A DNA stretch of 64,000 nt from Alphaproteobacteria bacterium. GTDB taxonomy: Bacteria > Pseudomonadota > Alphaproteobacteria > Sphingomonadales > Sphingomonadaceae. The translations under genes and the position numbers were made by a program. Position 1 is the first letter of the stretch, and every line of letters starts with the position of its first letter. A model generated the notes under the pieces. It was not told the origin of the DNA, did no database searches, and saw only the letters and a program-made list of their open reading frames with translations. The stretch lies in contig JAHJIJ010000019.1 in assembly GCA_018823325.1 (NCBI GenBank), positions 1-64,000 on the forward strand. The letters run 5' to 3'. Below, in pieces: positions 6,932 to 36,586 of this stretch.

Positions 6932-6945
6932 TCATCAAGGGTGAT

Positions 6946-6968
6946 GGCGGCCGCATGGTGCGGTCGCC
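6946..6968. terminator. hairpin after TBDR gene
   Basis: GGCGGCCGCA and TGCGGTCGCC form a 10-pair stem (one G-T pair) with a three-base loop, 14 bases after the receptor stop. There is no T-run, so it may be a weak terminator or an mRNA-stabilising stem that sets lower expression of the downstream hydrolase. Confidence 0.45.
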
Positions 6969-7034
6969 GTCGCGCCGCTAATGGTGATGACATGCCGTGC
7001 AAAGAACCGGCGTGGAAGATTGGGAGAGGTCTGA

Positions 7035-9020
7035 ATGTCCAGGTTCATGAGCGCGCTGCTGCTGGGTAGCGTCACGATTGCGGCGACGGCTTCCAGCGAG
7101 GCGGATGCCCGTGTCAGCCGGATCGACGTCAGCGAAGTGAAGCCCGCCTTCGGCGGCAAGCGCTTCGGCACCGTGGGCAGTTATGAATGGGTGCGCGCCG
7201 TGGCGCATTTCGAGGTCGACCCCAGCCTCCCGGCCAATGCCGGCGTCAAGAACCTCCAACGCGCGCCACGCAATGCTAGGGGCCAGGTCGAGATGGATGC
7301 GGACGTCTGGATGCTGCGGCCGACCGATCCTTCGGCCGGAAACGGACATCTCTTCTACGAGCCCGTTAATCGCGGGCGCCCGCTGTCGCTAGGCCAGTTC
7401 AATGGCGCGGCGCCGGCTCCGCTCGATCACCCGGAAGCCGCCGGCAATGGCTTCCTGATGGAGCAGGGCTACACGATCGTGTTCAGTGGCTGGCAGCCCG
7501 GCTACCCGGTGGCAGAGGCCCCAACCATGGCGGTTGGCTATGGCAGCCGCCTCCCCGACGCGGGAGGACTCAAGGCCCGGCTTCCGATCGCGCGTGGCGT
7601 CAACGACACGCCGGTCACGGGCCGCGTGATTGAAGGGGAGGGCTTTGCCGGACAGTCGGACGGCCGCAAGATCTATCTTACCTATCCTGCCGCCGATACA
7701 GCGGACGAAAGCGCCTATCTGCGCGCCGCGGGGTCCACAGAGCCGCTGCGTGATGGCAGCAGCTGGCGCTATCTGAACGAGCTTCAGGTCGAGGTGACGC
7801 GCCCGGCTGGCGCTCAGGGTCCGGTCGAGTTCGTGTATGAAGCCAAGGATCCGTTCGTCTATGGCCTTGCGCTCATCTCGATGCGGGATCTCATGTCCTT
7901 CTTTCGCCACGAGACCGCAGGCAACCCGCTGCGCGAGAACGGCCGCAAGCCTTTGACCGGCACCTTCGCATTCGGCGCCTCGCAGACCGGGCGCACGGTC
8001 AAGACGCTGGTCTATCTGTTCAATGACGACGAGCAGGGGCGGAAGGTCGTCGATGGCGCATTCATTCATATCTCGGGCGCCAGCCTCAATTCGCAGAACG
8101 AACCGTTCGGTCGGCCGGGCGACAAATACGGCGCCTTCCCGTTCACCTACGCCGCCATGTTCGATCCGATCAGCCGGCAATATGGCGGCGTGTTGATGCG
8201 CTGCTCGGCACTGGGCACCTGCCCCAAGATCATCCACACTGACTCCGATTCGGAGATGTCGTTCGGCACCAGCCTGCTCTACACGGACACCAAGGGACAG
8301 GATGTCCAGTTCCCAGACAACGTCCGCGTGTACCTGCTTGCAGGCACGCAGCATGGTCCCGCTCAGAAGGCGGAGCGGACGATGTGCAAAAATCTGAGCA
8401 ATCCGTTACCCTATGCGCAGCCCATGCGCAGCCTGCTCGTGGCTCTGGATCAGTGGGTCACGGCCGATCGCGCCCCACCAGCCAGCCGGCATCCGATGCG
8501 CGCCGACGGAACGCTGATCAGCCTTACCGAGATGCAGGCGACCTTTCCGAAGATCCCGCAGATGGTCGTGGACACCAGCTTTCAGACCTTCAACTTCGTC
8601 GATCCTGGCTCAGGCGATCCCGTCGAGGGCCTAGCCTACCCCGACTATCGCCTGAAGACCGATGCCGACGGCAATACGGTCGCTGGCATCCGCAATGCCG
8701 AGTTGATGGTGCCGCTCGGCACCTACACGGGCTGGAACCCTTCGGCGACAGGCACCGGACTGTGCCCAGCGACCGGATCCTACGTCCCGTTCGAGCCAAC
8801 GAAGGCGGCGCGAGAGGAGCTTGGTGATCCCCGTCTGTCGATTGCGGAGCGCTATCCCACCGTGGAGGCCTATGTCGCGGAAATGCGCAAAGCCACCCAG
8901 AGCCTCGTCGCGCAGCGCCTGATGCTGCCGGCAGATGCCGAGGCGGTTATCGACGGCTCGCCGCGGCGCTATGCGCAAGCGATAGACGCATCCGGGAGAG
9001 CGGCTGCCGCGACGCAGTGA
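7035..9020 (+). CDS. secreted alpha/beta hydrolase (Abhydrolase_10-type)
   Basis: A 661-residue exported protein with a signal peptide ending near SSEADA. Residues about 314-318 form the nucleophile elbow GASQTG with Ser316, and the C-terminal region carries PNGKAG-free, long loops typical of the large 'alpha/beta hydrolase domain' family (Pfam Abhydrolase_10) rather than of small esterases. A His in AGTQHG could complete the triad. I infer ester or lactone hydrolysis in the periplasm. ATG 7035 has GGGAGAGG upstream. The following gene overlaps at the stop codon region, so it belongs to one transcript with the molybdenum hydroxylase and the PQQ enzyme, and probably acts on the compound imported by the preceding receptor. 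Confidence 0.8.
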   Translation: MSRFMSALLLGSVTIAATASSEADARVSRIDVSEVKPAFGGKRFGTVGSYEWVRAVAHFEVDPSLPANAGVKNLQRAPRNARGQVEMDADVWMLRPTDPSAGNGHLFYEPVNRGRPLSLGQFNGAAPAPLDHPEAAGNGFLMEQGYTIVFSGWQPGYPVAEAPTMAVGYGSRLPDAGGLKARLPIARGVNDTPVTGRVIEGEGFAGQSDGRKIYLTYPAADTADESAYLRAAGSTEPLRDGSSWRYLNELQVEVTRPAGAQGPVEFVYEAKDPFVYGLALISMRDLMSFFRHETAGNPLRENGRKPLTGTFAFGASQTGRTVKTLVYLFNDDEQGRKVVDGAFIHISGASLNSQNEPFGRPGDKYGAFPFTYAAMFDPISRQYGGVLMRCSALGTCPKIIHTDSDSEMSFGTSLLYTDTKGQDVQFPDNVRVYLLAGTQHGPAQKAERTMCKNLSNPLPYAQPMRSLLVALDQWVTADRAPPASRHPMRADGTLISLTEMQATFPKIPQMVVDTSFQTFNFVDPGSGDPVEGLAYPDYRLKTDADGNTVAGIRNAELMVPLGTYTGWNPSATGTGLCPATGSYVPFEPTKAAREELGDPRLSIAERYPTVEAYVAEMRKATQSLVAQRLMLPADAEAVIDGSPRRYAQAIDASGRAAAATQ

Positions 9021-9028
9021 GAAACGAC

Positions 9029-11143
9029 ATGGAAACGAGCCGGCGATCAGTCATCAAGCTCGCAGCGGCGTCCGGACTGGCGTTCGCGCTGAGCGAAGGG
9101 CGGGCGCGAGCGGTAGCGGCGCGTCGGCTTGGGTCCGGCTTTCAACCAATACCGTGCTTCCAGCTGCATGCAGATGGACGTGCGACCCTTTTCCTGGGCC
9201 TTAGCGAAATGGGGCAGGGCGTGACCACGATGGCGGCCATGCTGGTGGCTGAGGAGCTGGATCTCCCGCTGGATCGGATCACCGTCGAGCAGGCCCAGGC
9301 TGATCCCGAACGGTTCGGCATTGGCGGTCGGCAGGCGACCGGCGGTTCTACCTCCGCGCGCTTAGCCTGGGAGCCGTTGCGTCAGGTCGGCGCGACGGCC
9401 CGCGCCATGCTGCTCGACGCGGCGGCACGCCAGCTCGAGGTGCCGAGGAAGCAGCTCGAGACGACTGGGGGTGTCGTACGCCATCCGCCGACCGGCAGGC
9501 AGGCGCACTATGGCGATCTCGTACAGGTGGCTTCCTTGATGGTAGTCCCGCAATCAGTCAGCCTCAAGACGCCGACGGGTTACCGCATTATCGGCCGGGA
9601 CGCCCACCGCGTAGACGGCGCTGCGATCGCGAATGGCAGCATCCGCTACGGGATTGACGTCAAGGTGCCGCACATGAAGGTCGCCGCGATCGTGACCTGT
9701 CCGGAGGTCGGCGGCCGCCTCCTTGCGCTTGATGAAGCGGCGGCGCTGCAGCTGCCGGGCGTCGTTGCCGTGGTGATGCTGGACGATGCCTTTGCCGTGG
9801 TTGCGGAGCAGTCCTGGACAGCGCTGAGTGCCGCGAGATCGGTGAAGGCGCAATGGTCGAAGGGCGTCGCCGTTCAAAGCCAGGCCGATGTGGTGCAAGG
9901 CCTTGAGGCCGCACTGCAAGCGCCCGGCGCAATGGCCTTTTCCAGCGGTGACGCCCAAGCCGTGCTGGCGGCGGATGACCAGCGGATCAGCGCCACCTAC
10001 AGCCAATCCTTCCTTGCCCATGCTCCCATCGAGCCGCTGAACTGCACGGCGCACATCACGGCAGACAGGTGCGAAATCTGGACTGGCACGCAGGTGCCGG
10101 GGCCGGCACGTGAGGCCGTCGCGCAAAAGCTAGGCCTGCCTCTCGAGCAGGTGGTGCTCCACAATTTCCCCATCGGCGGCACATTTGGGCGGCGGTTGGA
10201 CAACGACTTCGTTCTTCGCGCCGTCGATGTCGCCCGGAGGGTTCCGTGGCCGGTCAAACTGCTCTGGAGCAGGGAGGAGGACTTCCGGCAGGATTTCTTT
10301 CGTCCCGCCTATCTGGACCGGCTCACAGCAAGCCTCGATGGGAGTAACAAGCCCGTAGGCTGGTCGCATCAGATTGCCGGCTCTTCCGTCTTCGCGCGCG
10401 TGGACGCGCGCATGTTCAAGGATGGCGTGGATCTGGGAGCGATCCAGTCCGCGATCGACATGCCCTATGCGCTGCCGATCCGCGACCTGTCCTATCATCG
10501 TGCCGAATGCGGCGTGCGCACCGGGTCATGGCGCGGTGTCGGGCGTGCGCGCACCCTTTTTCCGTTGGAGAGCTTCGTTGACGAGCTGGCTCATGCGGCG
10601 GGGATTGACCCCATTGATTATCGTAGGGCGCTGATCGATCAGCCGAGGTTGCGTCATGTGCTGGATGTCGCCGCCGAGCGGGCAGGGTGGAACGAGGCTC
10701 TGCCGGCCGGGGAAGGGCGCGGTGTCTCGGTGCTCTGGGGCTTTGGGAGCTTTGTGGCGCAAATCGTTCATGTGGCCATGCTGCCCGAGACGCCGCTGCG
10801 CATCAGGCGCATTGTCGCCGTCATCGATTGCGGGCGGCCGATCAATCCGGACGGCATTCGCGCGCAGATGGAGGGCGGCATCCTCTTTGGCCTGTCCGCC
10901 GCGCTCGGGGAGGCTGCACGGGTAGAGAAGGGGCGCATGGCCGCCACGAGCTTCGCCAATTACCGGCTCCTGCGCATCAATGCCGCACCGCCGGTTGAGG
11001 TGCACATCGTGGCAAGTGAGGAGGAACCGCGCGGCGTGGGCGAATCCGGCGTGCCGGGCATCGCGCCGGCGCTTGCCAATGCGATCTTTGCGGCGAGCGG
11101 CCGGCGCATCAGGGCGCTGCCGCTATCCGGGAGCGGGCTGTAG
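9029..11143 (+). CDS. molybdenum hydroxylase large subunit (IorB-like), Tat exported
   Basis: A protein of about 704 residues starting METSRRSVIKLAAASG, a twin-arginine signal, so it is folded with cofactor and exported. It belongs to the xanthine-dehydrogenase/aldehyde-oxidase superfamily, close to the isoquinoline 1-oxidoreductase beta subunit: GLSEMGQGVTTMAAMLVAEE, QATGGSTS, FPIGGTFGRR, CGVRTGSWRGVGRA, and the catalytic-Glu motif GVGESGVPGIAPALANAI. Such enzymes hydroxylate N-heterocycles or oxidise aldehydes with water as oxygen donor. Odd: the small [2Fe-2S] partner (IorA type) normally adjacent is not in this window. GTG at 9017 is also in frame but ATG 9029 is preferred because it gives a standard Tat peptide. 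The next gene follows by three bases. Confidence 0.85.
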   Translation: METSRRSVIKLAAASGLAFALSEGRARAVAARRLGSGFQPIPCFQLHADGRATLFLGLSEMGQGVTTMAAMLVAEELDLPLDRITVEQAQADPERFGIGGRQATGGSTSARLAWEPLRQVGATARAMLLDAAARQLEVPRKQLETTGGVVRHPPTGRQAHYGDLVQVASLMVVPQSVSLKTPTGYRIIGRDAHRVDGAAIANGSIRYGIDVKVPHMKVAAIVTCPEVGGRLLALDEAAALQLPGVVAVVMLDDAFAVVAEQSWTALSAARSVKAQWSKGVAVQSQADVVQGLEAALQAPGAMAFSSGDAQAVLAADDQRISATYSQSFLAHAPIEPLNCTAHITADRCEIWTGTQVPGPAREAVAQKLGLPLEQVVLHNFPIGGTFGRRLDNDFVLRAVDVARRVPWPVKLLWSREEDFRQDFFRPAYLDRLTASLDGSNKPVGWSHQIAGSSVFARVDARMFKDGVDLGAIQSAIDMPYALPIRDLSYHRAECGVRTGSWRGVGRARTLFPLESFVDELAHAAGIDPIDYRRALIDQPRLRHVLDVAAERAGWNEALPAGEGRGVSVLWGFGSFVAQIVHVAMLPETPLRIRRIVAVIDCGRPINPDGIRAQMEGGILFGLSAALGEAARVEKGRMAATSFANYRLLRINAAPPVEVHIVASEEEPRGVGESGVPGIAPALANAIFAASGRRIRALPLSGSGL

Positions 11144-11146
11144 GTT

Positions 11147-13249
11147 ATGGCGATGGGGGGACGGTTGAGCGGCATTCTGGGCAGAGCGCTTCTGGCGATC
11201 ATGGCGGCGTCGTTGCTGGCGGCGTGCAGCAAGGCGCCGAACATTCACGCGCAACTGGTCGACGACGCCAGCATCGGCGACGCTGCGCTTGCCGGAGACT
11301 GGCTGAGCCACGGGCGGACCCATGCCGAGGATCGGTTCAGCCCACTCGATCAGATCAATCGCGAGAGCGTCGCGCGTCTTGGGCTCGCCTGGTCGCTGGA
11401 CCTGCCTTCCAAGGGCGCTATGGAAGCAACGCCGCTGGTCTGGAACGGGATCATCTACACGACCGGGAGCTGGGGCGTCGTCTATGCCGTGGATGCCCGC
11501 ACCGGCAAGCAGATCTGGTCCTATGATCCCCAGGCGCAGGGCCGCGCTGCCGAGGCGATCGTGTGGGATCGCAACCGCGGCGTCGCGCTGTGGAATGGAA
11601 AGGTCTATGTGGCGCTGGTCGATGGTCGCCTGATCGCTCTGGACGCCCGGACGGGTGCGGAAGTCTGGACCGCACAAACCTTCGATCGCAAGCTGCCGTT
11701 GTCGATCACCGGCGCGCCGCGCGTTTTCGGCGGAAAGGTCATCATTGGCAATGCAGGTGGCGATGTCGGCACCCGGGGCTTCGTCTCGGCTTACGATGCG
11801 GAGACCGGCAAGCAGGCGTGGAAATTCTATCTGGTGCCCGGCAACCCCGCCGACGGCTTCGAGAGCGACGCGATGCGGATGGCCGCTGCGACGTGGACCG
11901 GCGAGTGGTGGAAGATGGGCGGGGGTGGCAATCCCTGGAATGCCTTTTCCTACGATCCCGCCTTGCGCATGGTCTATGTGGCAACGGGCAATGGCGGGCC
12001 CTGGAACCAGCATGTCCGCAGCCCTGGCGGCGGCGATAATCTGTTCCTGGCCTCGGTGGTCGCCCTGAATGTCGATACCGGCGACTATATCTGGCACTAT
12101 CAGGAGACACCGGGCGACAGCTGGGACTTCGCCTCGGCCATGGACATGATCCTGACCGACCTGCCGATCAATGGTCAGGTCCGGCAGGTGCTGATGCATG
12201 CGCCGAAGAACGGCTTCTTCTACGTGCTGGATCGCAAGACCGGAGAATTGCTCTCGGCCGAGAAGATCGTGCCCGTCACCTGGGCGAGCCATGTCGATCT
12301 CAAGACCGGGCGACCGGTGGAGGCGCCGAACATCCGCTATGATGATGGACCGGCTGTGATCGCGCCCACAGGCGCCGGCGCGCACAATTGGCAGCCCATG
12401 TCCTACGATCCGGGACGGCAGACCGTTTTCATTCCCTATCAGATCAACAGCGCCACCTATCAGGACGCGCCAGATCTCGCCTCCTATCGCTTCGTGGCAG
12501 GAAAGTTCGATCGTTCGGCACGACTGAGCCCGGCCGGGCCTTCCAGCACGGGCCTGCTGGCTTGGGGTCCTGTCGGCCAGCGCGAGAAATGGCGGACCGT
12601 GGACCCGACCCCGATCATCGGCGGCACCATGACGAGTGCCGGCGGGCTCGTATTCTATGGGCGCCCTGATGGTCAGTTCATTGCTGTGGATGCCGATACA
12701 GGCAAGGCGGTGTGGCAGCGCTATGTCGGTGGCGGCATCGTCGCGCCGCCCGTTTCCTTTGCGGTCGATGGCAAGCAATATGTCGCGGTGCTGACCGGGG
12801 TCGGCGGTGGTGCGGCCAACGCCGGTGGCCCGATCATGGCCAGCTATGGCTGGCGGTACGGAGAAGGCCGGCGGCTCCTGGTGTTCACGCTGGACGGCGA
12901 CGCGCCCGTGCCTGCAGCACCGGAGGCCGACGCGCGTGTCATTCGTCCACCGATTGCCGTCAACCGGCCTTCCGAGCGGCGCGGCATGGCACTCTACGGT
13001 GACTATTGTGCGATCTGTCATGGGGGACAGGCGGTCAACGGCGGCACCACGCCGGATCTGCGTGCTTCTTCGCCGGAGGTTATCGACATGCTGCCTCAGA
13101 TATTGATCCAGGGTGCGTTGGCACCCGCGGGTATGCCGAGCTTCGCGCATGTGATGACCGAGGCGGAGGCGCGCGACATCTCGGCCTATCTCAAAGCGCA
13201 AAGTTTCAAGACCTCCAGCCCTGTGAAGCGCTCTTCATCCTCGCGCTGA
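11147..13249 (+). CDS. PQQ-dependent quinohemoprotein dehydrogenase, lipoprotein
   Basis: A 700-residue PQQ beta-propeller dehydrogenase fused to a C-terminal cytochrome c domain (CAICH at residues 621-625). Tryptophan-docking repeats recur (DARTGKQIWSYD, DARTGAEVWTAQ, DADTGKAVWQRY), and GDSWDF contains the Asp expected as catalytic base. The N-terminus ends in LLAAC, a lipobox, so the enzyme is probably a membrane-tethered periplasmic lipoprotein. It would oxidise a primary alcohol or aldehyde and pass electrons through its own heme. Odd: type II alcohol dehydrogenases carry two adjacent Cys just before the NRGVA(L/V)WNGKVY segment; here the aligned positions are Ile-Val, so the vicinal disulfide ring is absent. 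It is the last gene of the forward block. Confidence 0.9.
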   Translation: MAMGGRLSGILGRALLAIMAASLLAACSKAPNIHAQLVDDASIGDAALAGDWLSHGRTHAEDRFSPLDQINRESVARLGLAWSLDLPSKGAMEATPLVWNGIIYTTGSWGVVYAVDARTGKQIWSYDPQAQGRAAEAIVWDRNRGVALWNGKVYVALVDGRLIALDARTGAEVWTAQTFDRKLPLSITGAPRVFGGKVIIGNAGGDVGTRGFVSAYDAETGKQAWKFYLVPGNPADGFESDAMRMAAATWTGEWWKMGGGGNPWNAFSYDPALRMVYVATGNGGPWNQHVRSPGGGDNLFLASVVALNVDTGDYIWHYQETPGDSWDFASAMDMILTDLPINGQVRQVLMHAPKNGFFYVLDRKTGELLSAEKIVPVTWASHVDLKTGRPVEAPNIRYDDGPAVIAPTGAGAHNWQPMSYDPGRQTVFIPYQINSATYQDAPDLASYRFVAGKFDRSARLSPAGPSSTGLLAWGPVGQREKWRTVDPTPIIGGTMTSAGGLVFYGRPDGQFIAVDADTGKAVWQRYVGGGIVAPPVSFAVDGKQYVAVLTGVGGGAANAGGPIMASYGWRYGEGRRLLVFTLDGDAPVPAAPEADARVIRPPIAVNRPSERRGMALYGDYCAICHGGQAVNGGTTPDLRASSPEVIDMLPQILIQGALAPAGMPSFAHVMTEAEARDISAYLKAQSFKTSSPVKRSSSSR

Positions 13250-13660
13250 TCCGAAGGATCTGGACGTTCTGATCACGAGGCAATGCTCCCCATTCACAGG
13301 CGGGAGCTCCTGTTATCTCTCTGCAATCGAAACTCGCGGGTTGTCGACAAGTGACGAGTTCGATCCAGCGCTGATTGACTTATTCAGGCGCGGCGGCGCG
13401 GTAGATGATATCGGAGCATCCGCCCTACACAACACTGCCATTGGGGGCCGCCTTTTGGCGTTCAGGCGCGTAGGAGATGACCTGCAATCAATGATTTCAG
13501 ACGCTCGTGAACAAAGGTTGGTTTTGGGAAGGCGCATAAGGCTTTGTGAATTTCAACTGCGTCGGCGTGAGGTGGCATGAACCCGTTTGACCGCAAGCCG
13601 CGGGAGGCCAATCGGCAGGAAGTGCTCTAATTTCCCAGCTCCACCAAGGAGAGCTAGAGA
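13250..13660. other. 411-base gap without supported gene
   Basis: A 79-codon forward frame from a TTG at 13341 and a 74-codon reverse frame at 13537-13313 are present, but neither has a convincing ribosome site or recognisable domain and both look like noise or the remains of a lost gene. AAGGAGAGCTAGAG before 13661 is the ribosome site of the SDR gene. Confidence 0.5.
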
Positions 13661-14413
13661 ATGATGCTACTGAGCGGCAAGGTCGCCATCATCACAGGCG
13701 CGAGTTCAGGGATCGGCAGGGCAGCCGCAATGCTGTTCGCCGCCAACGGCGCCGCCGTGGTGCTCGTCGCCCGTCGACGGGGACTGCTGGACCAATTGGT
13801 AGATGAGATCGAACAGCGCGGCGGGCGAGCGCTTGCGATAGTGGGTGACGTGGCAGATGAACAGACGCATGGGGAGGCTGTTGCTGCTGCGCGATCAACG
13901 TTCGGCGGCCTGCACATTGCCTTCAACAACGCCGGTCTCGTTGGAACCATGAAGCCGTTGACGGAGATCGAGCCGCGGCAATGGTCGGAAGTGCTGGCGG
14001 TGAACTTGACCGCATCCTTCCTCGCTGCCCGAGTACAAATACCTTGCATGCTGGAGCAGGGAGGAGGCGCCCTGGTTTTTACCAGCAGCTTTGTCGGAAA
14101 CAGCGTTGGATTACCGGGCATGAGCGCTTATGCAGCAGCCAAAGGGGGGCTCATGGGCTTGGTCCGCGGCATAGTGGCAGACTATGGCGCGTCAGGGGTC
14201 CGCGCAAACGCCCTTCTCCCAGGTGGGACCGCGACCGAGATGGCCGGCGACGTTGATCAGCGAAAATGGGCTGCCAGTCTTCATGCCATGAAGCGGATCG
14301 CTGAACCGAAAGAAATAGCGCAAGCAGCGCTGTTCCTCGTGAGTGATATGGCAAGTTTCGTCACGGGGTCGGCCTTGTGGGCCGATGGCGGCAATGCCGC
14401 CGTAAAACTCTAG
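13661..14413 (+). CDS. SDR family NAD(P)-dependent oxidoreductase
   Basis: A 250-residue classical short-chain dehydrogenase. TGASSGIG near residue 13 binds the nucleotide, FNNAG is at about residue 88, the catalytic serine lies in FTSSFVGN, and Tyr-x3-Lys is in SAYAAAKGG. The C-terminus SALWADGGNAAVKL is typical of FabG-like or 3-alpha/glucose-dehydrogenase-like enzymes. It would oxidise or reduce a secondary alcohol/ketone in the cytoplasm. A strong AAGGAGAG site precedes the ATG pair at 13661. It stands alone on the forward strand between two blocks, so its pathway cannot be told from position. Confidence 0.9.
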   Translation: MMLLSGKVAIITGASSGIGRAAAMLFAANGAAVVLVARRRGLLDQLVDEIEQRGGRALAIVGDVADEQTHGEAVAAARSTFGGLHIAFNNAGLVGTMKPLTEIEPRQWSEVLAVNLTASFLAARVQIPCMLEQGGGALVFTSSFVGNSVGLPGMSAYAAAKGGLMGLVRGIVADYGASGVRANALLPGGTATEMAGDVDQRKWAASLHAMKRIAEPKEIAQAALFLVSDMASFVTGSALWADGGNAAVKL

Positions 14414-14567: not shown

Positions 14568-15491
14568 TCAGGCCGTGCCTACAGCGCTCTGTGTCTTTAT
14601 TAGCCGCCATGCTGACTGCGCTGCTTGGGCGCCGTCTCCCAAAGCATTCGAGATCAGTCCCGGGAAACCGGAACGGACGTCGCCCGCCGCAAAGCAACCC
14701 GGGACAGAGGCCTGCATGTCAGAACCGGTCACCACCCGTCTGTCGCTGTCCAGTCTGAGGAGGGCTTGGACGAAGTCGGTGTTCGGCGTCTGACCGATGT
14801 ATGGGAAGACGGCGGCGGCGGGTATGCTGACTCCATCGTCGAGCATGACCGATGCAAGCTCCGTATCGCCCTCAATCGCCTCAACCCTTCTGCCGGCAAG
14901 GATCGAAATATTTGGTAGCGCTTCGACGCGCCTCACCTGAGGACTGCGCGCCGTGGGCCGAGGTCCTTGATGGATGATGGTGAGCGTCGCTGCATGCTCA
15001 GCGAGCAACGCGGCTTCATCAAAGGCAGAATCACCCCCGCCGACAATCACCATGTCCTTGCCGCGAAAGAAGGGGCCATCACAGGAAGCACAGTGAGACA
15101 CGCCGCGGCCGAGGAAAGTTGCTTCTCCTGGCACGCCCAACGCCTTGCGATGCGAACCCGTCGCCAGGATAACCGTTTTTGAACGCAGTGCCGTTTCTGC
15201 GCAACGAATGCTGAATTGGCCATCCATCGGCGAAACAGCCTCGACAGTGTCGACAAGGAAGCTGGCGCCGGCGTTCTCCGCCTGAAACTGCAGAGCCGGG
15301 CCGAGTTCATATCCTGCTACGCCGTCCGGAAAGCCGGGCGCGTTCATGATGCGGTCCACGGTCGCAATCTGCCCGCCTGCGGCCAAATGTTCGATGATGA
15401 CCGTCTCCAGCCCCCATTCCGCCGCAGTGGCCGCCGCAGTCAATCCAGCAACGCCCGCACCAATCACCACAAGGTCAACGGCTTCGTTCAT
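14568..15491 (-). CDS. thioredoxin-reductase-like FAD/NAD(P) oxidoreductase
   Basis: A protein of about 307 residues. The FAD-binding GxGxxG is at residues 11-16 (GAGVAG), the redox-active disulfide CASC is at 134-137 within VSHCASCDGP, the NAD(P) motif GGGDSA is at about 151, and the second FAD motif AAGDVR is near the C-terminus. This is the full layout of low-molecular-weight thioredoxin reductase (CAxC-D) and the related flavoproteins that reduce dedicated partner proteins. ATG 15491 follows GAAGGGCCCGCAG and lies 11 bases after the stop of the UGSC-family gene, so the two are one operon. I infer that it reduces the CSTC centre of that protein. Confidence 0.88.
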   Translation of the reverse strand: MNEAVDLVVIGAGVAGLTAAATAAEWGLETVIIEHLAAGGQIATVDRIMNAPGFPDGVAGYELGPALQFQAENAGASFLVDTVEAVSPMDGQFSIRCAETALRSKTVILATGSHRKALGVPGEATFLGRGVSHCASCDGPFFRGKDMVIVGGGDSAFDEAALLAEHAATLTIIHQGPRPTARSPQVRRVEALPNISILAGRRVEAIEGDTELASVMLDDGVSIPAAAVFPYIGQTPNTDFVQALLRLDSDRRVVTGSDMQASVPGCFAAGDVRSGFPGLISNALGDGAQAAQSAWRLIKTQSAVGTA

Positions 15492-15502
15492 CTGCGGGCC
15501 CT

Positions 15503-17176
15503 TCAGCGCCAGTCGTCGACCGACATGGTCGTGCGGTAGCCGGCACCCATGATCTGCCAATAGCCGTTGCTTTCGCCGCCGACGACAACGACATTGATGT
15601 CCTGCTCGTTGAACATCGGTACAAGCTCATCAGGCGCGGCTTTGAGCTTGGTCGCAGCTGGCTCGACACCTAGCGTGGCGTTGGGATAGATGTAGTTCTG
15701 TACCAGCTGCAGGTCCCAGTAGCGCCCGGCGGGCATCTGGGCGCTTTCGTAGGCAAAGCGGATCAATTTCTCCTTCGTGTCGAATCCACCGCGGTCGATG
15801 AACTGCCGAGCCGTGATCGGGTCGAGCAACAGCGTTGGTGGGCCGACGACGTCAGTGGCGCGGAGCATGTCCTGAACATGTTCGCGCCAGTAGGTCTCAC
15901 GCAGGCCCAGGCTGAACGTCGTCGTCCGGCCGCCGTAGAAGATGCTCACGGTGCTGTCCTCGCGATCATAGCCCTTCTGCACGTGCAGAGGCTCCCAAGG
16001 CGAGCGTTCCTCATTCTCCGCGAAGGTGAGGCTGTTGTAACTGTAGCCATTTCCGAGCGAGCCCATGTAGGTCTCCCCGGGGACGGAGCCGCCCTGCAGA
16101 TTCTGGGAAAGCAGGCCATAAGCGCGGCCGATGGTGGCATTGGCATGATTGTAGGGACCAAGGGCCCCGATTCCGCTGTTCATGTTGATCTGCTGACGGA
16201 TCGGACCGTTGACCACCACCATGGCCGCCCCGGAGCTCGACGTGCTGCTGCGGGCGCTGAGCCCGGAGGAGGCGATGGCAAGGACGACCGGGAAGTATTC
16301 GGGAAGACAACCTGCCATGACCGCGTTCACCGCCACCTTCTCGACGGTGTACTCCCAAAGGCCCCGGTTTGCCGTGGGCTGCATCCGGCCGACGATATCG
16401 TCCGGCTTGCGGCTGGTGTGCGCCAACATGGCGGCAACACGCTCCTCCGTCGGCAGGATGATCGGCAGCTTGTCCGTCCAGTTGTTGTTCAGGAAGAGCT
16501 TGTGGAGAGTCTCCTCGCTCGCCGCGTCCAGTAGCCTGGCTGTGCGTGCGAACTGGACGGCTTCCTCGTTGGTCGCCGCAATGCCCACGGTCAACGCGTC
16601 GATGACCTCGCGCATGAACGGCAAGCCCGTGACGGGGTCGTCGCCTTCGACATAAGCACGCAGCTGCTCCGCGCTCCGCCCCATGACAGGCTGGGGAACA
16701 AACGCACGCGGCGCCCGGTCGAGCCCGGCCATGCGGACCGTGGAACGCACCACGGCGGCGAACTTGTCTGTGTGGACCGAGACGGTTGGCAGCCCGTAGT
16801 CGCTTTCGAGTGTCACCGCATGCTTGGCGACGGCGGGTGCGCAGGTGCTGCAGTGGCCCACCCCGAAAATCACGGCGTCTGCTTCAGCCCTAGCGCGCGC
16901 CCACAATTCCGGATCGTCCCGACCATAATAGCCGGACATTGGAACCAAGTGAGTCTGAACGCTCGGCAGGTTCTCGTTCAGCCAGATTTCAATTTGCTCG
17001 AGCAGCCGCGTGGAGTCGTCGAATCGGCTGTCGATCAGGAAGATCGTTTTCTCCTGCAACGTGGGGAGTCGAGGAGCGAGGCTTTTTTTGGTCACGATGG
17101 GTGGATAACCCACGGGGTTGTGCGCGATCATGTGCGGTTGCCCGGTACGGACATTATCTGATGCGGCGATAGTCAT
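15503..17176 (-). CDS. UGSC family protein, cysteine form (CSTC)
   Basis: A 557-residue cytoplasmic protein. Residues about 44-200 resemble the UGSC domain, a thioredoxin-like family named for a selenocysteine-Gly-Ser-Cys motif; here FGVGHCSTCAPAV puts Cys109-Ser-Thr-Cys112 at that place, followed by GLPTVSVHTDKF and RAFVPQPVMGR, which are typical of the family. The C-terminal 300 residues contain MAGCLPEYFPVVLA and a Gly/Ser/Asn-rich segment, also known from long members. No catalysed reaction is established to my knowledge. ATG 17176 follows GGAGGATCAA; the upstream TTG at 17191 is rejected because that ribosome site would lie inside the gene. It is co-transcribed with the thioredoxin-reductase-like gene and divergent from a MarR gene, so a regulated thiol-redox reaction on a foreign compound is likely. 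Confidence 0.75.
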   Translation of the reverse strand: MTIAASDNVRTGQPHMIAHNPVGYPPIVTKKSLAPRLPTLQEKTIFLIDSRFDDSTRLLEQIEIWLNENLPSVQTHLVPMSGYYGRDDPELWARARAEADAVIFGVGHCSTCAPAVAKHAVTLESDYGLPTVSVHTDKFAAVVRSTVRMAGLDRAPRAFVPQPVMGRSAEQLRAYVEGDDPVTGLPFMREVIDALTVGIAATNEEAVQFARTARLLDAASEETLHKLFLNNNWTDKLPIILPTEERVAAMLAHTSRKPDDIVGRMQPTANRGLWEYTVEKVAVNAVMAGCLPEYFPVVLAIASSGLSARSSTSSSGAAMVVVNGPIRQQINMNSGIGALGPYNHANATIGRAYGLLSQNLQGGSVPGETYMGSLGNGYSYNSLTFAENEERSPWEPLHVQKGYDREDSTVSIFYGGRTTTFSLGLRETYWREHVQDMLRATDVVGPPTLLLDPITARQFIDRGGFDTKEKLIRFAYESAQMPAGRYWDLQLVQNYIYPNATLGVEPAATKLKAAPDELVPMFNEQDINVVVVGGESNGYWQIMGAGYRTTMSVDDWR

Positions 17177-17291
17177 TTGATCCTCCACCAACGACTTTCA
17201 GCCGTTTTTCCGATACATGCCCAGCCGATCCGGCCGAAGCGCTCAATTCACTTGCTGGGGATGAGGATAAGCAGGCAAATTTACTTTGCAA

Positions 17292-17306
17292 TACTAATTA
17301 TAAGTA
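17292..17306. promoter_or_regulatory. candidate MarR operator, UGSC/MarR intergenic region
   Basis: TACTAATTATAAGTA is an AT-rich imperfect palindrome (TACT/AGTA arms) between the divergent UGSC and MarR genes. Its 10-base core ACTAATTATA occurs again, on the opposite strand, at 17981-17990 on the other side of the MarR gene, just before the MFS gene. Shared sites on both flanks suggest one regulator controlling both transcripts. Confidence 0.45.
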
Positions 17307-17392
17307 ATACGATCCATACTGTCAGGTCACTTGCGGTTTTCGCCACCGATGCGATGGAGGGAACAATAGGGCGTTGCGGCAAGGCGGAGCAA

Positions 17393-17944
17393 ATGAAGGT
17401 ACCGAGAAGAGCGAATGTAGATCGGGCGGCCGAGGTGACGAGCGCGACGGGCGAGGCGTCTCCACCCAGCGCGCTTCCCCATTATGATCATTGGTATCAG
17501 GAAGGCTCGATCGAAGATCTGAGGTTCCGCTTCACCAGTCGTCTTCGTGAGGCGATGCGCACCATGCGCGTGATGCTCGAGGAGGAGCTGCGCGCCGAGG
17601 GCCAGACCCGTGCCTTGTGGGAAGCGCTGCTCGTGATCGTACTGTCGGGTGGCCATAGCACACAGAAATCGCTCGCCAACCGATTGCGAATCGAAGGGGC
17701 GACCCTCGTTCGCTTGCTCGATGCGCTGGAAGGGGATGGCCTCATCGAACGTGTAGCTGGCGTTGAGGATCGACGCTCCAAGATGATCAAGCCGACCCCC
17801 AAGGGGCTGGCGCTCGCCAAGCGTCTGGTTCAGCGTACGGACGAGGTACGTGCGCGCTTGCTCAATGGCTGGTCGGAAGCGGATCTCCATGCGGGGATCG
17901 CCATGCTCGAGAAGTTTGGATCCGCCATAACCCACGAAAAATGA
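17393..17944 (+). CDS. MarR family transcriptional regulator
   Basis: A regulator of about 183 residues. The winged helix is clear: HSTQKSLANRLRIEGATLVR, LLDALEGDGLIERVAG, and a VEDRRSKM wing, with flanking dimerisation helices (EAMRTMRVMLEEELRAEG; LAGI-free C-terminal helix). The frame is open back to 17177, but ATG 17393 has GGCGGAGC just upstream and removes an odd hydrophobic extension, so it is preferred; ATG 17354 is another option. It is divergent from the UGSC operon and precedes the MFS gene, and the same 10-mer flanks it on both sides, so it probably represses both. Confidence 0.85.
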   Translation: MKVPRRANVDRAAEVTSATGEASPPSALPHYDHWYQEGSIEDLRFRFTSRLREAMRTMRVMLEEELRAEGQTRALWEALLVIVLSGGHSTQKSLANRLRIEGATLVRLLDALEGDGLIERVAGVEDRRSKMIKPTPKGLALAKRLVQRTDEVRARLLNGWSEADLHAGIAMLEKFGSAITHEK

Positions 17945-17980
17945 TTGATTCCTATCAAGTGCAAGATGATTAGTTGCACA

Positions 17981-17990
17981 TATAATTAGT
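17981..17990 (-). promoter_or_regulatory. second copy of candidate MarR site, upstream of MFS gene
   Basis: The reverse strand reads ACTAATTATA, identical to 17293-17302. It lies about 90 bases before the MFS start, in a notably AT-rich stretch between the MarR and MFS genes where a promoter is expected. Confidence 0.4.
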
Positions 17991-18080
17991 TATGCTATGT
18001 ATTTCTGAGGCGGCTGCGAATCGCGGTCAGCTGACACTCGCAGCGACCGGCACGATCGGTTGGCACGGGAGGGGATTGGC

Positions 18081-19463
18081 ATGGCGCGCGTGACGATGGC
18101 GTCCGAAACGAGTGACCAGCAGGGTGTGCCACCCGCTGAAGCGAAGGATTGGCCTCGGCCCCGTTCCGCTTGGTACGCGGTTGGCATGATCTCGTTCATA
18201 TCGGTGCTGTCAAACATCGACCGTGGTGTGATCGCGCTCCTTGTCGAACCGATCAAACGGGACCTGCAGGTCAGCGACACGGAAATGGGTCTGCTGATCG
18301 GTTTCGCCTTTTCGTTCTTCTACATGCTTGTGGGCCTGCCCATGTCGCGGGTGACGGACGTTCGCAATCGCCGCAACATTCTGACGATCGGTCTCAGCAT
18401 CTGGAGCATGGCTACCGCGCTCTCGGCTTTGGCCTACAGCTATCTGACGCTGTTTATCGCCCGAGGGATCGTGGGCGCCGGGGAATCGGTCAAAGGCCCA
18501 ACATCGATGTCGATGATTTCCGACATCGTGCCCCGCAGCAAATTGCCCAGAGCGATGTCCATTTATTCCATGGGCATTGCTGGCGGCATGGCCGCTTCGA
18601 TGATCATTGGGGGCGTTCTTCTCGAACTCGTGAAGGACATCACGCCGATCCATGTCCCGGGCTTCGGTCTCCTGCGTGACTGGCAGTTCGTTTTCCTCAG
18701 CTGTGGCTTGCCTGGGTTGCTGGTCGCGGTGATCTTTTTTCTCACGGTGAAGGAGCCCACCCGCAAGGGCCGTAAAGTCAAAGGCTCCGTGCCTCTACCG
18801 GACGTCGCTCGCTTCGTCTGGTCTAACAAGCGCGTTTACGTGCCTTTGTTGCTCAGCCTCGCCATCGGGGCGATCGAGTCATTCGGCATGGCTGCCTGGC
18901 GTGTCGCGTTTTTCGAACGCACCCATGGCTGGACACCCAATGAGGTCGGGCCATTGCTCGGCATCGCGGCGCTTCTCACAACGCCGATTGGCTTGGTCAT
19001 CGGCACATTGATCGCCGAAAGGCTGGACCGGCAGAAGATTCCGGACGCGATGATCCGCCTGTGCCTTTACTCGAATTTCATCACGGTCCCTGCGGCGATT
19101 GCCATGCCGCTGATGCCGACGCCCTGGCTTTCTCTGGCACTGATCGTGCTGAGCGGGGTTGGGAACGCGATTGGTTCGCCCGGGCAGAATTCGGCCATCC
19201 AGATCATCACGCCCAACGAGATGAGAGGCCAGCTAAGCGCGATCTATCTATTTACGATCAGCGTCGTCGGTGCCGGCCTGGGTCCCCTGTTTGTCGCGCT
19301 GATCACGGACTTCGTCTTCGTCGATGAGAGCATGCTGCGCTACGCGATGCTGGCCACGACAGCGGTGCTGGGGCCGCTGGGGCTGCTTCTCACTTGGCTG
19401 GCCATGCGTCCCTATGGCGAAGCCGTGATCAGAGTACTGAACGACGAGGCGGAGCAGGCGTAA
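18081..19463 (+). CDS. MFS transporter (anion/sugar-acid symporter type)
   Basis: A 460-residue permease with about 12 membrane segments, beginning with the first helix around SAWYAVGMISFISVLSNIDR. NIDRGVIALL and the loop VTDVRNRRNIL match the MFS signature (spinster/4-hydroxybenzoate or hexuronate-like subgroup with IDR in the first helix). It probably moves a carboxylated substrate across the inner membrane with protons. ATG 18081 follows GGGAGGGGATTGGC; TTG 18060 is also in frame. It is followed 139 bases later by a TBDR and shares a candidate MarR site with the UGSC operon, so it likely completes uptake of the compound that operon processes. It is clearly related to the permease at 37852. 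Confidence 0.88.
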   Translation: MARVTMASETSDQQGVPPAEAKDWPRPRSAWYAVGMISFISVLSNIDRGVIALLVEPIKRDLQVSDTEMGLLIGFAFSFFYMLVGLPMSRVTDVRNRRNILTIGLSIWSMATALSALAYSYLTLFIARGIVGAGESVKGPTSMSMISDIVPRSKLPRAMSIYSMGIAGGMAASMIIGGVLLELVKDITPIHVPGFGLLRDWQFVFLSCGLPGLLVAVIFFLTVKEPTRKGRKVKGSVPLPDVARFVWSNKRVYVPLLLSLAIGAIESFGMAAWRVAFFERTHGWTPNEVGPLLGIAALLTTPIGLVIGTLIAERLDRQKIPDAMIRLCLYSNFITVPAAIAMPLMPTPWLSLALIVLSGVGNAIGSPGQNSAIQIITPNEMRGQLSAIYLFTISVVGAGLGPLFVALITDFVFVDESMLRYAMLATTAVLGPLGLLLTWLAMRPYGEAVIRVLNDEAEQA

Positions 19464-19602
19464 AGGCAGAGTGGAGATGCCAGCGCACGATAAGTCGCAG
19501 AAACAGTTCGGCATGGGAATGCAGCACCTCGCAGCCCGCAAGACCCGCACCGGAAGAGAAAACCATGGCCATGCACGGACCATGGCGACGAGGAGAGGAA
19601 AG

Positions 19603-22500
19603 ATGATAATGCCCTGTTCACTTCGCACATTCGGAAGCCTCAATCATGGCCTGAGCCGGTCGGCACTGGCTGCGGCTTTGGCAATGCTCGCGACAGGCAA
19701 CGGGCTGGCGCAGAGCGGGGACGACCTCAGCCCTCAGCAAGAAGCTGCCCAGGCAGATGACGCGATCGTGGTGACCGGCTCCCGCATTGCCCGGCAGGGC
19801 TTCAACGCGCCGACCCCGGTCACGGTCGTGGGGCAAGACAGCATTCAGGCGCAGGGCGACACGAACATTGCCGAGGTCCTGAACGAAATGCCGGCTTTCC
19901 GGCCAAGCCAGACGCCGGAAAACTCCTTCGTGACCATTACCGGCAATATCGGCGCGCGCACCCTCGATCTGCGCGGGCTCGCGCCGCAGCGTACGCTCGT
20001 GCTGGTCAACGGCCGGCGCTTCATACCCTCGTCGCCGCAGGGAACGGTGGACCTCAATCTCATCCCAACCATGCTCATCCAGCGTGCCGAGGTCGTTACC
20101 GGCGGCGCCTCGGCGGCCTACGGCTCGGACGCGGTCGCCGGCGTGGTGAACTTGATCCTGGACACCAAGCTCACCGGGTTTCGCGCGCAAGGACAGTATG
20201 GCATCTCCGAACGGGGAGACGACAAGAATTATCAGTTCGCGCTTGCAGGCGGCAGCTCGTTCGGTGGGGGACGAGGCCACGTCGTGGCGGCGTTTGAGTT
20301 CGCCGACAACAAGGGCATGGGCGGCTGCTTCGAGATAGACTATTGCGCGAAAGAGTACAGCAACTTCACCAACAATGATTGGATCGCGCCTACGGCGGCG
20401 AATCCCAACCCCAACAATCCGCTGCCGAACCGCGTCACCTTGCCGCACAAGCATCCGACGCTGATTACGCCCGGGCTCATCAATTCGCCGGGCGCAGGTG
20501 GCAGCCCGTTACTGCGCGGCACCTACTTTCGACCGGATGGGACGCCTGTCATCAACGGATGGGATTATGGTCAGTGGCCCTCCACATTTGCGCAAGTGGG
20601 TGGCGACGGCCATCACGATGATCCGTTTACCTCAGCGCATCTCATGAAGTCGCCGGTTCGCCGCTGGGCGGCCTATATGCATGGCGAGTATGAATTCACG
20701 GACACGATCACGGGCTTCGCCGAGCTGTCCTATGGCGATGTTCTCGGTACGCAGAATGGTGCGCAGTTCCGCGAGATCGGCCTAACGATCCGGCGCGATA
20801 ATCCGTTTCTGCCGCCTGAGATCCTGGCGTTGATGGGCCCCAATCAGGCTTCCATCGGCTTGGCGCGGGATGGCGATGACTTCGGTGTCGCCAAATATCG
20901 TGGCCAGAACCGCACCTTTCGCGGTGTCGCCGGGCTCCAGGGAGACTTTGGCGGTGGCTGGCGGTGGGATGCCTATTATCAGTTCGGCCACAATAAATAT
21001 GAGCAGGAAATGGCCAACAATCGCATCAATGCGCGATTTGCCTTAGCCATCGACGCTGTCCGCAACAGCGCTGGCGATATCGTCTGCCGCGTCAATGCCG
21101 ACGCGAACCCCGCCAATGACGCGCCGGGCTGCATCGCGATCAATCCGTTCGGCGAAAATCAGTGGGATCCGGCTGCCAAGGCCTTCACCTACGGTACGGG
21201 CTGGCAAAATTCGACGATCAAACAGCATGTCGTGGCGGCCAATATCCAAGGCGAGCCGTTCAGCACCTGGGCGGGACCTGTCTCGATCGCTGCCGGCGCC
21301 GAATATCGTCGCGACACAATCGCCGGCGATGCTGATCCGATCTCGCTGATCAACGGCTGGTATGTCGGCAATGGCAGCGCGGTGTCAGGCAAAGTGAGCG
21401 TTAAGGAGGGCTATGTCGAAGCCATTGTGCCGCTTGCCAGGGACATGGCATTTGCGCAGAATCTTGAGCTAAACGGCGCACTCCGCCTGACAGATTACAG
21501 CACCAGCGGCAGTGTGACGACGTGGAAAGTCGGTGCCATCTGGGACGTGACGGACTGGTTGCGGCTTCGAGGCACGCGCTCGCGCGACATCCGCGCGCCC
21601 AATCTCCTGGAGCTGTTCGGCTCGACGACCTCGGTGTCGTCACGTGTCGTTGGCGCCTCGGGTGTGCAATATCTGCCGCGTGTTTTCTCGGGCGGCAATG
21701 TGGCGCTGGACCCGGAGATCGCCGACACCTGGACAGTGGGTGCCGTGCTGACGCCGCGCGGCGTCCTGAATGGCCTGCGCCTTTCCGCCGACTACTATAA
21801 TATCGAGATCGAGGAGGCGATCAGCCAGGTGGGCGGCCAGACCATCGTCGATCGCTGCCTTCTGGCGAACGTGTCGGAATTCTGCAGTCTCATTACATTT
21901 GGCACCGCGAATCCCAATGAGATTGCCCAGATCCGCAACCCCTGGCTCAATCTCAACACATTGATCGTGCGCGGTGTCGATCTTGAGGCGGATTATCGCC
22001 TGCGGGTCGGTGACACGCAGAGCGTCAACTTCCGCGTGCTGGCATCCTATGTGGCCGATCTGATCACGGTAGATTCGGTCGGCTCCATCAACCGTGCCGG
22101 CCAGACCGGCGTGCAAACCGGCGCTCAGCCGGGTCTGCCACGGTGGACGGTGAATTCCACCGTCAGCTTCGACAGCGGACCGTTCAATTTCAACGTGCAG
22201 GGCCGCTTTATTTCGGCGGGCATCATGGACGTGACGCTGGTGGGTCCGACGGACGCCGGCTACGATACTGACCTGCCCAACAGCATCAGTGACAATCATA
22301 TCGAAGCCATGTTCTACGTTGATGTCGGCGCCAGCTACACCTTCGATCTTGCCGGGCGTTCGCTGCAGATTTACGGCGCGATCAAGAACCTCACGAACCC
22401 CACGCCTCCGGTCAACGTCTACAGCGGTTCGGGCACCAACCCGTTTCTCTTCGACCTCGTCGGCCGCAGGTTCACGATGGGTGCAAGGGTGAGCTTTTGA
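19603..22500 (+). CDS. TonB-dependent outer-membrane receptor
   Basis: A 966-residue receptor with signal peptide (SRSALAAALAMLATGNGLAQ), TonB box area DAIVVTGSRI, plug motifs LDLRGLAPQRTLVLVNGRRF and GGASAAYGSDAVAGVVNLIL, and a barrel ending FTMGARVSF with a terminal Phe. An extracellular loop carries CFEIDYC, a Cys-x5-Cys also present as CYDRPFC in the paralogue at 30031, so a conserved loop disulfide is likely. Start ATG 19603 follows GAGGAGAGGAAAG; earlier in-frame starts from 19471 would place residues ahead of the signal peptide. It follows the MFS gene on the same strand. Confidence 0.93.
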   Translation: MIMPCSLRTFGSLNHGLSRSALAAALAMLATGNGLAQSGDDLSPQQEAAQADDAIVVTGSRIARQGFNAPTPVTVVGQDSIQAQGDTNIAEVLNEMPAFRPSQTPENSFVTITGNIGARTLDLRGLAPQRTLVLVNGRRFIPSSPQGTVDLNLIPTMLIQRAEVVTGGASAAYGSDAVAGVVNLILDTKLTGFRAQGQYGISERGDDKNYQFALAGGSSFGGGRGHVVAAFEFADNKGMGGCFEIDYCAKEYSNFTNNDWIAPTAANPNPNNPLPNRVTLPHKHPTLITPGLINSPGAGGSPLLRGTYFRPDGTPVINGWDYGQWPSTFAQVGGDGHHDDPFTSAHLMKSPVRRWAAYMHGEYEFTDTITGFAELSYGDVLGTQNGAQFREIGLTIRRDNPFLPPEILALMGPNQASIGLARDGDDFGVAKYRGQNRTFRGVAGLQGDFGGGWRWDAYYQFGHNKYEQEMANNRINARFALAIDAVRNSAGDIVCRVNADANPANDAPGCIAINPFGENQWDPAAKAFTYGTGWQNSTIKQHVVAANIQGEPFSTWAGPVSIAAGAEYRRDTIAGDADPISLINGWYVGNGSAVSGKVSVKEGYVEAIVPLARDMAFAQNLELNGALRLTDYSTSGSVTTWKVGAIWDVTDWLRLRGTRSRDIRAPNLLELFGSTTSVSSRVVGASGVQYLPRVFSGGNVALDPEIADTWTVGAVLTPRGVLNGLRLSADYYNIEIEEAISQVGGQTIVDRCLLANVSEFCSLITFGTANPNEIAQIRNPWLNLNTLIVRGVDLEADYRLRVGDTQSVNFRVLASYVADLITVDSVGSINRAGQTGVQTGAQPGLPRWTVNSTVSFDSGPFNFNVQGRFISAGIMDVTLVGPTDAGYDTDLPNSISDNHIEAMFYVDVGASYTFDLAGRSLQIYGAIKNLTNPTPPVNVYSGSGTNPFLFDLVGRRFTMGARVSF

Positions 22501-32886: not shown

Positions 32887-32918
32887 GTCACCCTCCCAAG
32901 GTTGTTTTGAGTTTTGGA

Positions 32919-34301: not shown

Positions 34302-34397
34302 CGCCTCTCCAAAAAAAAGAATCATACTCGCATTATGTTTTGTGGCTTTTGTGATCTGCGCTGTTGTATGTCAACCGTTCCATGAAGGAGCGCTCAC

Positions 34398-35036
34398 TTG
34401 TCGGAAGATTTGGACGAACGGCTTGATAGAGCGGGCGCGTTTCCCGCACAGCAGGAGCGCAGCAAGCAAATGCGCGACATGCTTATTGAAACCGGCCTGT
34501 CGCTCGCCAGGCAGCTTAGCTACGATCAACTGTCGGTCGCCCGGATCTGCACTGAAGCGGGCTGCTCCACAGGCGCCTTCTACGCGCGATTTCCCGATAA
34601 AAAAGCGTTCTTCAAGGCGCTTATCGTCAAGCACACCATGAACAGTCGCGCACAATCGCGCCAAAGTCTCGATCAGGTTCCATTCGACGATCTTTTGAAT
34701 GAGATGATAGCCCGCTTGGTCCGGGCCTACGTAAGCAACGTCGTTTTTCTGCGCAGCGCCGTCCAGGTGTCACTTGAAGAACCGGAGGCTTGGGAGCCCT
34801 TTCGGCGGAACAGCCATGAGCTTGCAGCCTATCTGCTGGCAAGGATCAGGGTCGAGCCGAACATAGATCAAAGCTCAGTTCACGAGCCGACAATAAGATT
34901 CGCCGTTCAGGTCCTTCTCGGCACTCTGAACAACGCTTTCATTAATCGTCCGGGGCCGATTTTTCTGGAGGATCCAGAATTTCCCGTCTTACTGCGAAAC
35001 GCGGTGCAGAAAGCCATGTCACTGACGCGATTGTAG
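34398..35036 (+). CDS. TetR family transcriptional regulator
   Basis: A 212-residue TetR protein. The N-terminal helix-turn-helix is clear: QLSVARICTEAGCSTGAFYA, RFPDKKAFFKAL. The C-terminal 140 residues form the helical ligand domain, typical in length. TTG 34398 is accepted as start because AAGGAG lies eleven bases upstream; the next ATG (34470) would cut into the helix-turn-helix. It is divergent from the sulfatase-TBDR operon, separated by about 96 bases with an A-rich stretch, and most likely represses that operon. Confidence 0.85.
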   Translation: MSEDLDERLDRAGAFPAQQERSKQMRDMLIETGLSLARQLSYDQLSVARICTEAGCSTGAFYARFPDKKAFFKALIVKHTMNSRAQSRQSLDQVPFDDLLNEMIARLVRAYVSNVVFLRSAVQVSLEEPEAWEPFRRNSHELAAYLLARIRVEPNIDQSSVHEPTIRFAVQVLLGTLNNAFINRPGPIFLEDPEFPVLLRNAVQKAMSLTRL

Positions 35037-35125
35037 ACGATCCAGAGGGAGAAGCCGAAACTACAACAAAGCGCTTTGCGGCGTCGATGAACGAGCGGCG
35101 GCTATTGAACGGGCATTTGAGTTGC

Positions 35126-35146
35126 GAGACGGCCGCTTTGTTGGCG
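35126..35146 (+). repeat. intergenic GAAYGTCSGCT-type short repeat, copy 6
   Basis: GAGACGGCCGCTTTGTTGGCG, between the TetR and GIY-YIG-like genes; a partial match preceded by ATTGAACGGGCATTTGAG. Confidence 0.4.
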
Positions 35147-35234
35147 GTTTAGGTCCGACACCCACGATGTGGTTGACCTCCCCAAACTCAAGGCCGAATG
35201 TAGCTAGTATCAAGTCACATTAGTTTCGCTCTGC

Positions 35235-35762: not shown

Positions 35763-35843
35763 CGCACGTCTCAAGTCCGGGTAATAGCGCCACCGTCAGA
35801 TCATGAACCTCTGGCACCTTTCGATGATTTCCTTTGAGATGGC

Positions 35844-35863
35844 GAACGCCCGCTTTGTCGGCG
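35844..35863 (+). repeat. intergenic GAAYGTCSGCT-type short repeat, copy 7
   Basis: GAACGCCCGCTTTGTCGGCG, in the gap between the GIY-YIG-like gene and the MarR gene. Confidence 0.4.
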
Positions 35864-36514: not shown

Positions 36515-36586
36515 TTTTCCCCATCGCGCTGCGACGCAACGTCGTCGCATTTACCGGAATGCTACATTCTCGGTTGACTGTCTAGA

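Follow-up and report, generated by a model that had tools for sequence, protein, structure and literature searches.

The UGSC locus and its genes

We analysed a stretch of 64,000 nucleotides (the window) from contig JAHJIJ010000019.1 of an alphaproteobacterium of the family Sphingomonadaceae, and within it a locus where a gene for a UGSC-family protein is followed by a gene for a thioredoxin-reductase-like flavoprotein (Table 1). The best start of the UGSC gene is the ATG at 17176, which is preceded by GGAGGATCAA and yields a product of 557 amino acids. The Pfam profile PF24696 matches residues 26-182 of the 562-residue open reading frame (157 residues; 80.8 bits against a gathering cut-off of 25, E 1.7e-22), and the motif Cys109-Ser-Thr-Cys112 (CSTC) occupies the UGSC position, as the original prediction from the DNA had claimed. 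The NCBIfam model UGSC_fam (NF041046) gave 52.2 bits against a cut-off of 125, below the equivalog threshold, and by its sequence the protein is therefore a divergent member of the family. Neither of these two profile models names a reaction. The prediction had described a single long UGSC protein; the UGSC domain is real, but the remainder of the product is a second conserved domain that had been missed, here termed the C-domain.

The start codon of the flavoprotein gene (ATG 15491) lies 11 bases past the UGSC stop codon, and the 307-residue product carries a CASC motif at residues 134-137, again as first described. The same holds for the divergent MarR gene followed by genes for a major facilitator superfamily (MFS) transporter and a TonB-dependent receptor, all of which were recovered with Pfam profiles (MarR, PF01047).

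Table 1. Coordinates of genes, domains and candidate sites at the UGSC locus (window positions)
Feature	Position	Strand	Remarks
UGSC domain + C-domain fusion protein, 557 residues	15503..17176	-	relatives in G064 and G056 72% identical
UGSC domain (PF24696), flavodoxin-like in predicted model	16646..17116	-	Pfam profile match and structure model
Cys109-Ser-Thr-Cys112 motif	16841..16852	-	first Cys is TGA in L030 and L021
C-domain, constant UGSC neighbour	15506..16552	-	Pfam, NCBIfam and PDB sequence scans without significant match
Thioredoxin-reductase-like flavoprotein, CASC at 15081-15092, degenerate NADPH motif	14568..15491	-	profile matches, motif
Sigma-70-type promoter match CTGACA-17-TATAAT for UGSC-reductase pair	17297..17325	-	consensus match only
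Possible operator arm 1, overlapping -10	17282..17305	.	inverted-pair match
MarR/SlyA-type regulator	17393..17944	+	start inferred; alternative at 17354
Possible operator arm 2, upstream of MFS gene	17978..18001	.	inverted-pair match
MFS transporter	18081..19463	+	start inferred; 60% / 56% relatives in L028 / L029 clusters
TonB-dependent receptor	19471..22500	+	start uncertain, perhaps 19582

The C-domain, selenocysteine and selenoprotein B

The C-domain is fused to the UGSC domain or lies within 1.5 kb of it in 45 of the 46 loci recovered by two UGSC searches (28 of 29 from the class search and 17 of 17, window included, from the genus search), the sole exception being locus L067. Conversely, all 24 loci found through the C-domain (12 and 6 from two C-domain searches, and 6 of the 14 plasmid matches H11-H24) carry a UGSC match, which is partial in L025, weak in L050, and shared by two of the loci in one case. 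The two domains are fused in some genomes and encoded by separate adjoining genes in others. When 54 C-domains were scanned, 16 Pfam families were matched by one member each (best E 0.023) and 12 NCBIfam families by one or two members each (best E 0.031), with no GrdE or PrdA model among the latter; PDB sequences gave no match below E 0.6, and the C-domain alignment contains no invariant or nearly invariant cysteine or serine. A second C-domain gene or match adjoins the first in L036, L044, L045, L148-L150, L152, L153, L156 and L157, and because of these adjoining copies the C-domain may form mixed complexes.

A TGA codon stands exactly at the position of Cys109 in two relatives, L030 from the same genus (50% identical) and L021 from a Latescibacterota metagenome-assembled genome. 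Identity to the window protein is 69% (L021) and 53% (L030) in the C-domain, and 46% and 45%, respectively, in the UGSC domain. Judged by these codons, the window gene encodes the cysteine variant of a selenoprotein family. The genes of L030 follow one another on one strand in the order UGSC (with TGA), an AIRS-domain gene taken as SelD, a reductase-like gene, SelA, SelB and tRNA-Sec, and SelA, SelB and tRNA-Sec also lie near UGSC in L031 and in L157 (those of L157 were recognised by their resemblance to the L030 and L031 genes). The SelD-like match of L030 (7856-8521) covers the N-terminal AIRS domain only and continues seemingly in another frame; it looks broken, by a frameshift or an assembly error.

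Within the class, UGSC was found in 28 of 289 genomes; 69 of the 71 matches listed contain one TGA, and in those TGA loci that were fetched the stop coincides with the selenocysteine position of the profile. Within the genus, 15 of 94 genomes carry UGSC and 16 of 17 matches are stop-free. Among 14 genomes asked for SelB, three (G034, G288 and G459) possess it, all with TGA forms, and it is absent from the other 11, comprising ten with cysteine forms and G001, which lacks UGSC. The window gene has a cysteine codon at position 109 and its genome has no SelB, so selenocysteine is not encoded here. The hairpin signal 3' of the motif averaged z -2.14 in 28 selenocysteine rows versus +0.17 in 21 cysteine rows (one-sided p 8e-8), and a tree placed the window in a clade of seven cysteine rows (support 96), with the selenocysteine rows of L021 and L030 outside. 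The C/UxxC pair, with U read as C, is kept in 47 of 47 aligned UGSC domains. Selenocysteine in place of the first cysteine fits a redox or nucleophile role and supports the redox role initially assigned to the CxxC motif. A TGA-bearing UGSC gene was also seen on plasmid p2-T1 of Acidovorax sp. T1 (L043), which is typed as conjugative IncP and has IS1071 and IS91-type transposases a few kb from the gene.

Scans of the 47 UGSC domains against NCBIfam repeatedly listed selenoprotein-B models: gly_red_sel_B (17 members matched), GrdF (8), PrdB (7), GrdH (7) and TIGR01918 (6). Beyond these and UGSC_fam, each other model matched one UGSC domain only. The matches span the selenocysteine in all four rows checked, and of ten other UGSC domains scanned singly, six matched selenoprotein-B models with 11-19 bits against cut-offs of 65-800. 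For the window's own UGSC domain no selenoprotein-B model was listed at E 10, and it passed no cut-off of TIGR01917, TIGR01918, GrdF, GrdH or PrdB. UGSC is possibly a distant relative, not a member, of the selenoprotein B of Stickland reductases, enzymes of amino-acid-fermenting anaerobes. A separate group of stop-free proteins in UGSC-rich alphaproteobacteria (L128-L147) matches the C-terminal half of GRDB (PF07355) and has no C-domain within 1.5 kb.

A confident structure model of the UGSC domain built from four sequences (mean predicted local distance difference test score, pLDDT, 87.8) has five strands alternating with helices, with CSTC starting the third long helix. Its best fold matches, with middling scores, were mostly flavodoxin-, CheY-, B12-domain- and lumazine-synthase-like, and the domain thus looks flavodoxin-like in the predicted model. 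The model does not support the thioredoxin-like fold assumed at the outset; no thioredoxin was among the listed fold matches, although the domain may still have that fold.

The flavoprotein and the surrounding genes

The flavoprotein is a pyridine-nucleotide-disulfide oxidoreductase whose best PDB sequence matches are thioredoxin reductases. It scores 261 bits with TIGR01292, under the threshold of 343, and the window genome holds a separate TrxB above the family cut-off. Where TrxB rows show HRRxxFRA, the NADPH motif of TrxB, the flavoprotein has the degenerate HQGPRPTA, and NADPH as the donor, part of the original prediction, is therefore not supported. In a tree the window reductase groups with those of eight other fused loci, which have CASC, CADC or CAWC and a degenerate NADPH motif, apart from TrxB (CATC, HRR); the fork has support of 92/90, below star level, and several branches are long. 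The reductase of fused locus L041 falls elsewhere in this tree, from which the reductases of L148-L156 were left out, and the split loci L032, L046, L048 and L049 have TrxB-type reductases next to them.

Of 41 loci, 22 have a thioredoxin-reductase-like gene no more than 4 kb from UGSC, namely 16 of the 26 fused and 6 of the 15 split loci, against a rough chance expectation of about 0.7% per locus, derived from 25 matches in about 31 Mb at another threshold; the 41 loci are not independent of each other. In G064 a second gene above the TrxB cut-off sits directly downstream of the reductase. The flavoprotein is probably dedicated to the UGSC-C protein. The expectation that UGSC gene, reductase and MarR would be conserved neighbours was supported for the reductase, a frequent neighbour whose window copy also falls outside the TrxB group, but not for MarR.

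A tblastn search with the window MarR at E 0.01 found nothing in the stretches of relatives that were searched, though a different MarR-family gene adjoins UGSC in L029, and control of the locus by MarR is not supported. The matching sites said to flank MarR were found as an inverted pair of 24-nucleotide arms agreeing at 19 of 24 positions; when the two intergenic pieces were dinucleotide-shuffled 1000 times, one shuffle did as well. However, both arms contain TATAAT, and arm 1 overlaps the -10 element of the promoter match facing the UGSC gene (11 of 12 positions; one occurrence, with 1.0 expected from shuffled sequence). The likeness may thus be partly promoter sequence, and the pair is weak evidence for MarR control. 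No operator-like site with at least 17 of 24 matches was found in L028 or L029.

The import system proposed originally was supported for the MFS transporter, whose orthologues lie inside the UGSC clusters of two same-genus genomes. It is not supported for the receptor: that of L028 is close to the window receptor at the locus (47%), but nearly as close (44%) to another window receptor (30031-32886). The latter heads a region (30031-39183) that also contains a sulfatase, a P450 and a second MFS gene. Upstream of the UGSC locus, the plus strand at 4232-14413 encodes a TonB receptor, an alpha/beta hydrolase (PF20091), a molybdopterin-binding dehydrogenase subunit, a pyrroloquinoline quinone alcohol dehydrogenase with cytochrome and a short-chain dehydrogenase/reductase, and looks like another catabolic cluster.

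In G064 and G056, genes for malonyl-coenzyme A (malonyl-CoA) decarboxylase and an AMP-binding ligase follow the reductase. The decarboxylase occurs in 2 of the 94 genus genomes, both times in a cluster with the UGSC-C gene, and on one Neorhizobium plasmid malonyl-CoA decarboxylase and synthase immediately precede UGSC. Near other UGSC members are carboxylate-type transporters (SDF, TRAP, TTT), CoA transferases, amidohydrolases and phosphoenolpyruvate-mutase-type genes. A gene named phosphosulfolactate synthase is found near UGSC in L046 (4653-5441), and another, with an adenylosuccinate-lyase-family gene, in L051 (3847-6136).

Proposed reaction and comparison with known systems

We consider it about evenly balanced whether the UGSC-C protein of the window is the cysteine form of a selenocysteine/cysteine reductase that takes a substituent off a small acid after its import, with the flavoprotein restoring the reduced enzyme. 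In this scheme, a small carboxylic acid imported by the MFS transporter and perhaps the TonB receptor would be bound by the UGSC domain and the C-domain. Cys109, selenocysteine in relatives, would attack the atom carrying the leaving group next to the carboxylate, and Cys112 would resolve the adduct, so that the reduced acid is set free and a Cys109-Cys112 (or Se-S) bond forms. The flavoprotein would then use NAD(P)H and its CASC pair to reduce this bond. In the two same-genus relatives and Neorhizobium the released acid would most likely be malonate, passed on to malonyl-CoA synthetase and decarboxylase. We infer the chemical steps, the donor and the substrate of this cycle, and favour reductive group removal from a small acid because malonyl-CoA genes, carboxylate-type transporters and CoA transferases lie near members of the family.

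Several results weigh against this proposal. The full-length UGSC-C model has a pLDDT of 37 and its C-domain is not usable. The hairpin excess is missing in L021 itself (z +1.45) and slight in L030 (-1.06). In 19 of the 41 loci the 4 kb on either side of UGSC contain no reductase-like gene, and just 5 of 46, the window among them, have one in the 1.5-kb flanks. Matches to selenoprotein-B models have weak E-values (best 4.6e-4, with PrdB; most above 0.005), 4 of the 10 domains scanned singly have none, and the 25 of 34 Pfam families listed for the 47 domains do not include PF07355 (GRDB). Finally, malonyl-CoA decarboxylase was not found in the window genome in the survey of 94 genus genomes, so malonate as the product is doubtful here; the enzyme may release a different acid, or its product may be put to another use.

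A thiol-disulfide or peroxide/electrophile defence module, with CSTC as the reductant of disulfides, peroxides or metals and MarR as the oxidant sensor, would explain the thioredoxin-reductase-like CASC partner, the MarR regulator and the trxB and trxA genes adjoining an Arthrobacter member. We regard it as unlikely, since other members have catabolic genes around them (malonyl-CoA enzymes, CoA transferases, TRAP/TTT/SDF transporters), up to eight UGSC copies in one genome among the matches listed fit substrate diversity better, and the fold search listed no thioredoxin, though the domain may still have that fold. Another reading, with a similarly small chance, is that the enzyme splits thioethers or thiol conjugates, such as coenzyme-M-like or glutathione-like adducts, and that the leaving group is a thiol, as it is in 2-ketopropyl-coenzyme M reductase. 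Genes named phosphosulfolactate synthase near the Arthrobacter and Natrinema members, the adenylosuccinate-lyase-family gene in Natrinema, and, in L020, a downstream MetE-like gene that has an 86% relative in L019 point this way, but such genes occur in a minority of the loci examined and in none of the annotated malonate-gene clusters.

That flavoprotein and UGSC protein are mere neighbours, with UGSC-C chemistry being non-redox, would account for the loci that lack a reductase and for the degenerate NADPH motif. It is an improbable reading given selenocysteine at the first position in relatives, the C/UxxC pair kept in all 47 aligned domains and the reductase inside the selenocysteine gene run of L030. 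Reductive dehalogenation as the specific reaction, one of two options originally suggested, could be carried out by a selenocysteine/cysteine nucleophile with a resolving cysteine but is very improbable, as no halogen-metabolism product name appears in the annotated plasmid clusters (most other loci are annotated in part only).

Extended to the whole family, substituent removal from imported acids leads to a more tentative model, which we rate as somewhat short of even. UGSC and C-domain would together make up a branch akin to the selenoprotein-B reductases of the Stickland type, with no recognisable pyruvoyl partner and outside the amino-acid-fermenting anaerobes. This large family, with selenocysteine in most alphaproteobacterial copies and cysteine in most copies of the genus, would strip alpha substituents from imported organic acids using electrons from a dedicated thioredoxin-reductase-like flavoprotein, and one genome of the genus would hold a self-contained cassette with its own selenocysteine genes. 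New here are the fixed UGSC and C-domain pair, its frequent and probably dedicated reductase, the selenocysteine/cysteine exchange and the possible kinship with Stickland selenoprotein B. If the model is true, chemistry familiar from amino-acid-fermenting anaerobes would have a parallel in very different bacteria and archaea. The function of UGSC becomes a bench question, with a fixed partner domain, a likely dedicated reductase and few likely products, and the cysteine form should be makeable in Escherichia coli without selenium genes.

Among known systems, the window protein shares with the UGSC family (PF24696/NF041046) the domain match and the [UC]xxC motif; it differs in its fusion to the C-domain, in STC replacing GSC, and in falling below the NF041046 cut-off. 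The flavoprotein resembles thioredoxin reductase (TIGR01292) as a pyridine-nucleotide-disulfide oxidoreductase with a CxxC motif, but it lies below the cut-off and outside the TrxB group, with CASC and with HQGPRPTA rather than HRRDxxRA. Malonate assimilation proceeds by malonyl-CoA decarboxylase and synthetase; these genes adjoin UGSC in the closest relatives, whereas the window genome is without the decarboxylase. With selenoprotein B of glycine, sarcosine and betaine reductase and PrdB of D-proline reductase (TIGR01917, NF040794, NF040795, TIGR04483), UGSC shares weak but recurrent matches over the selenocysteine region. It differs in scores far under the cut-offs and in a partner C-domain that matches no GrdE or PrdA model; UGSC instead has a thioredoxin-reductase-like neighbour and occurs in alphaproteobacteria, haloarchaea and others.

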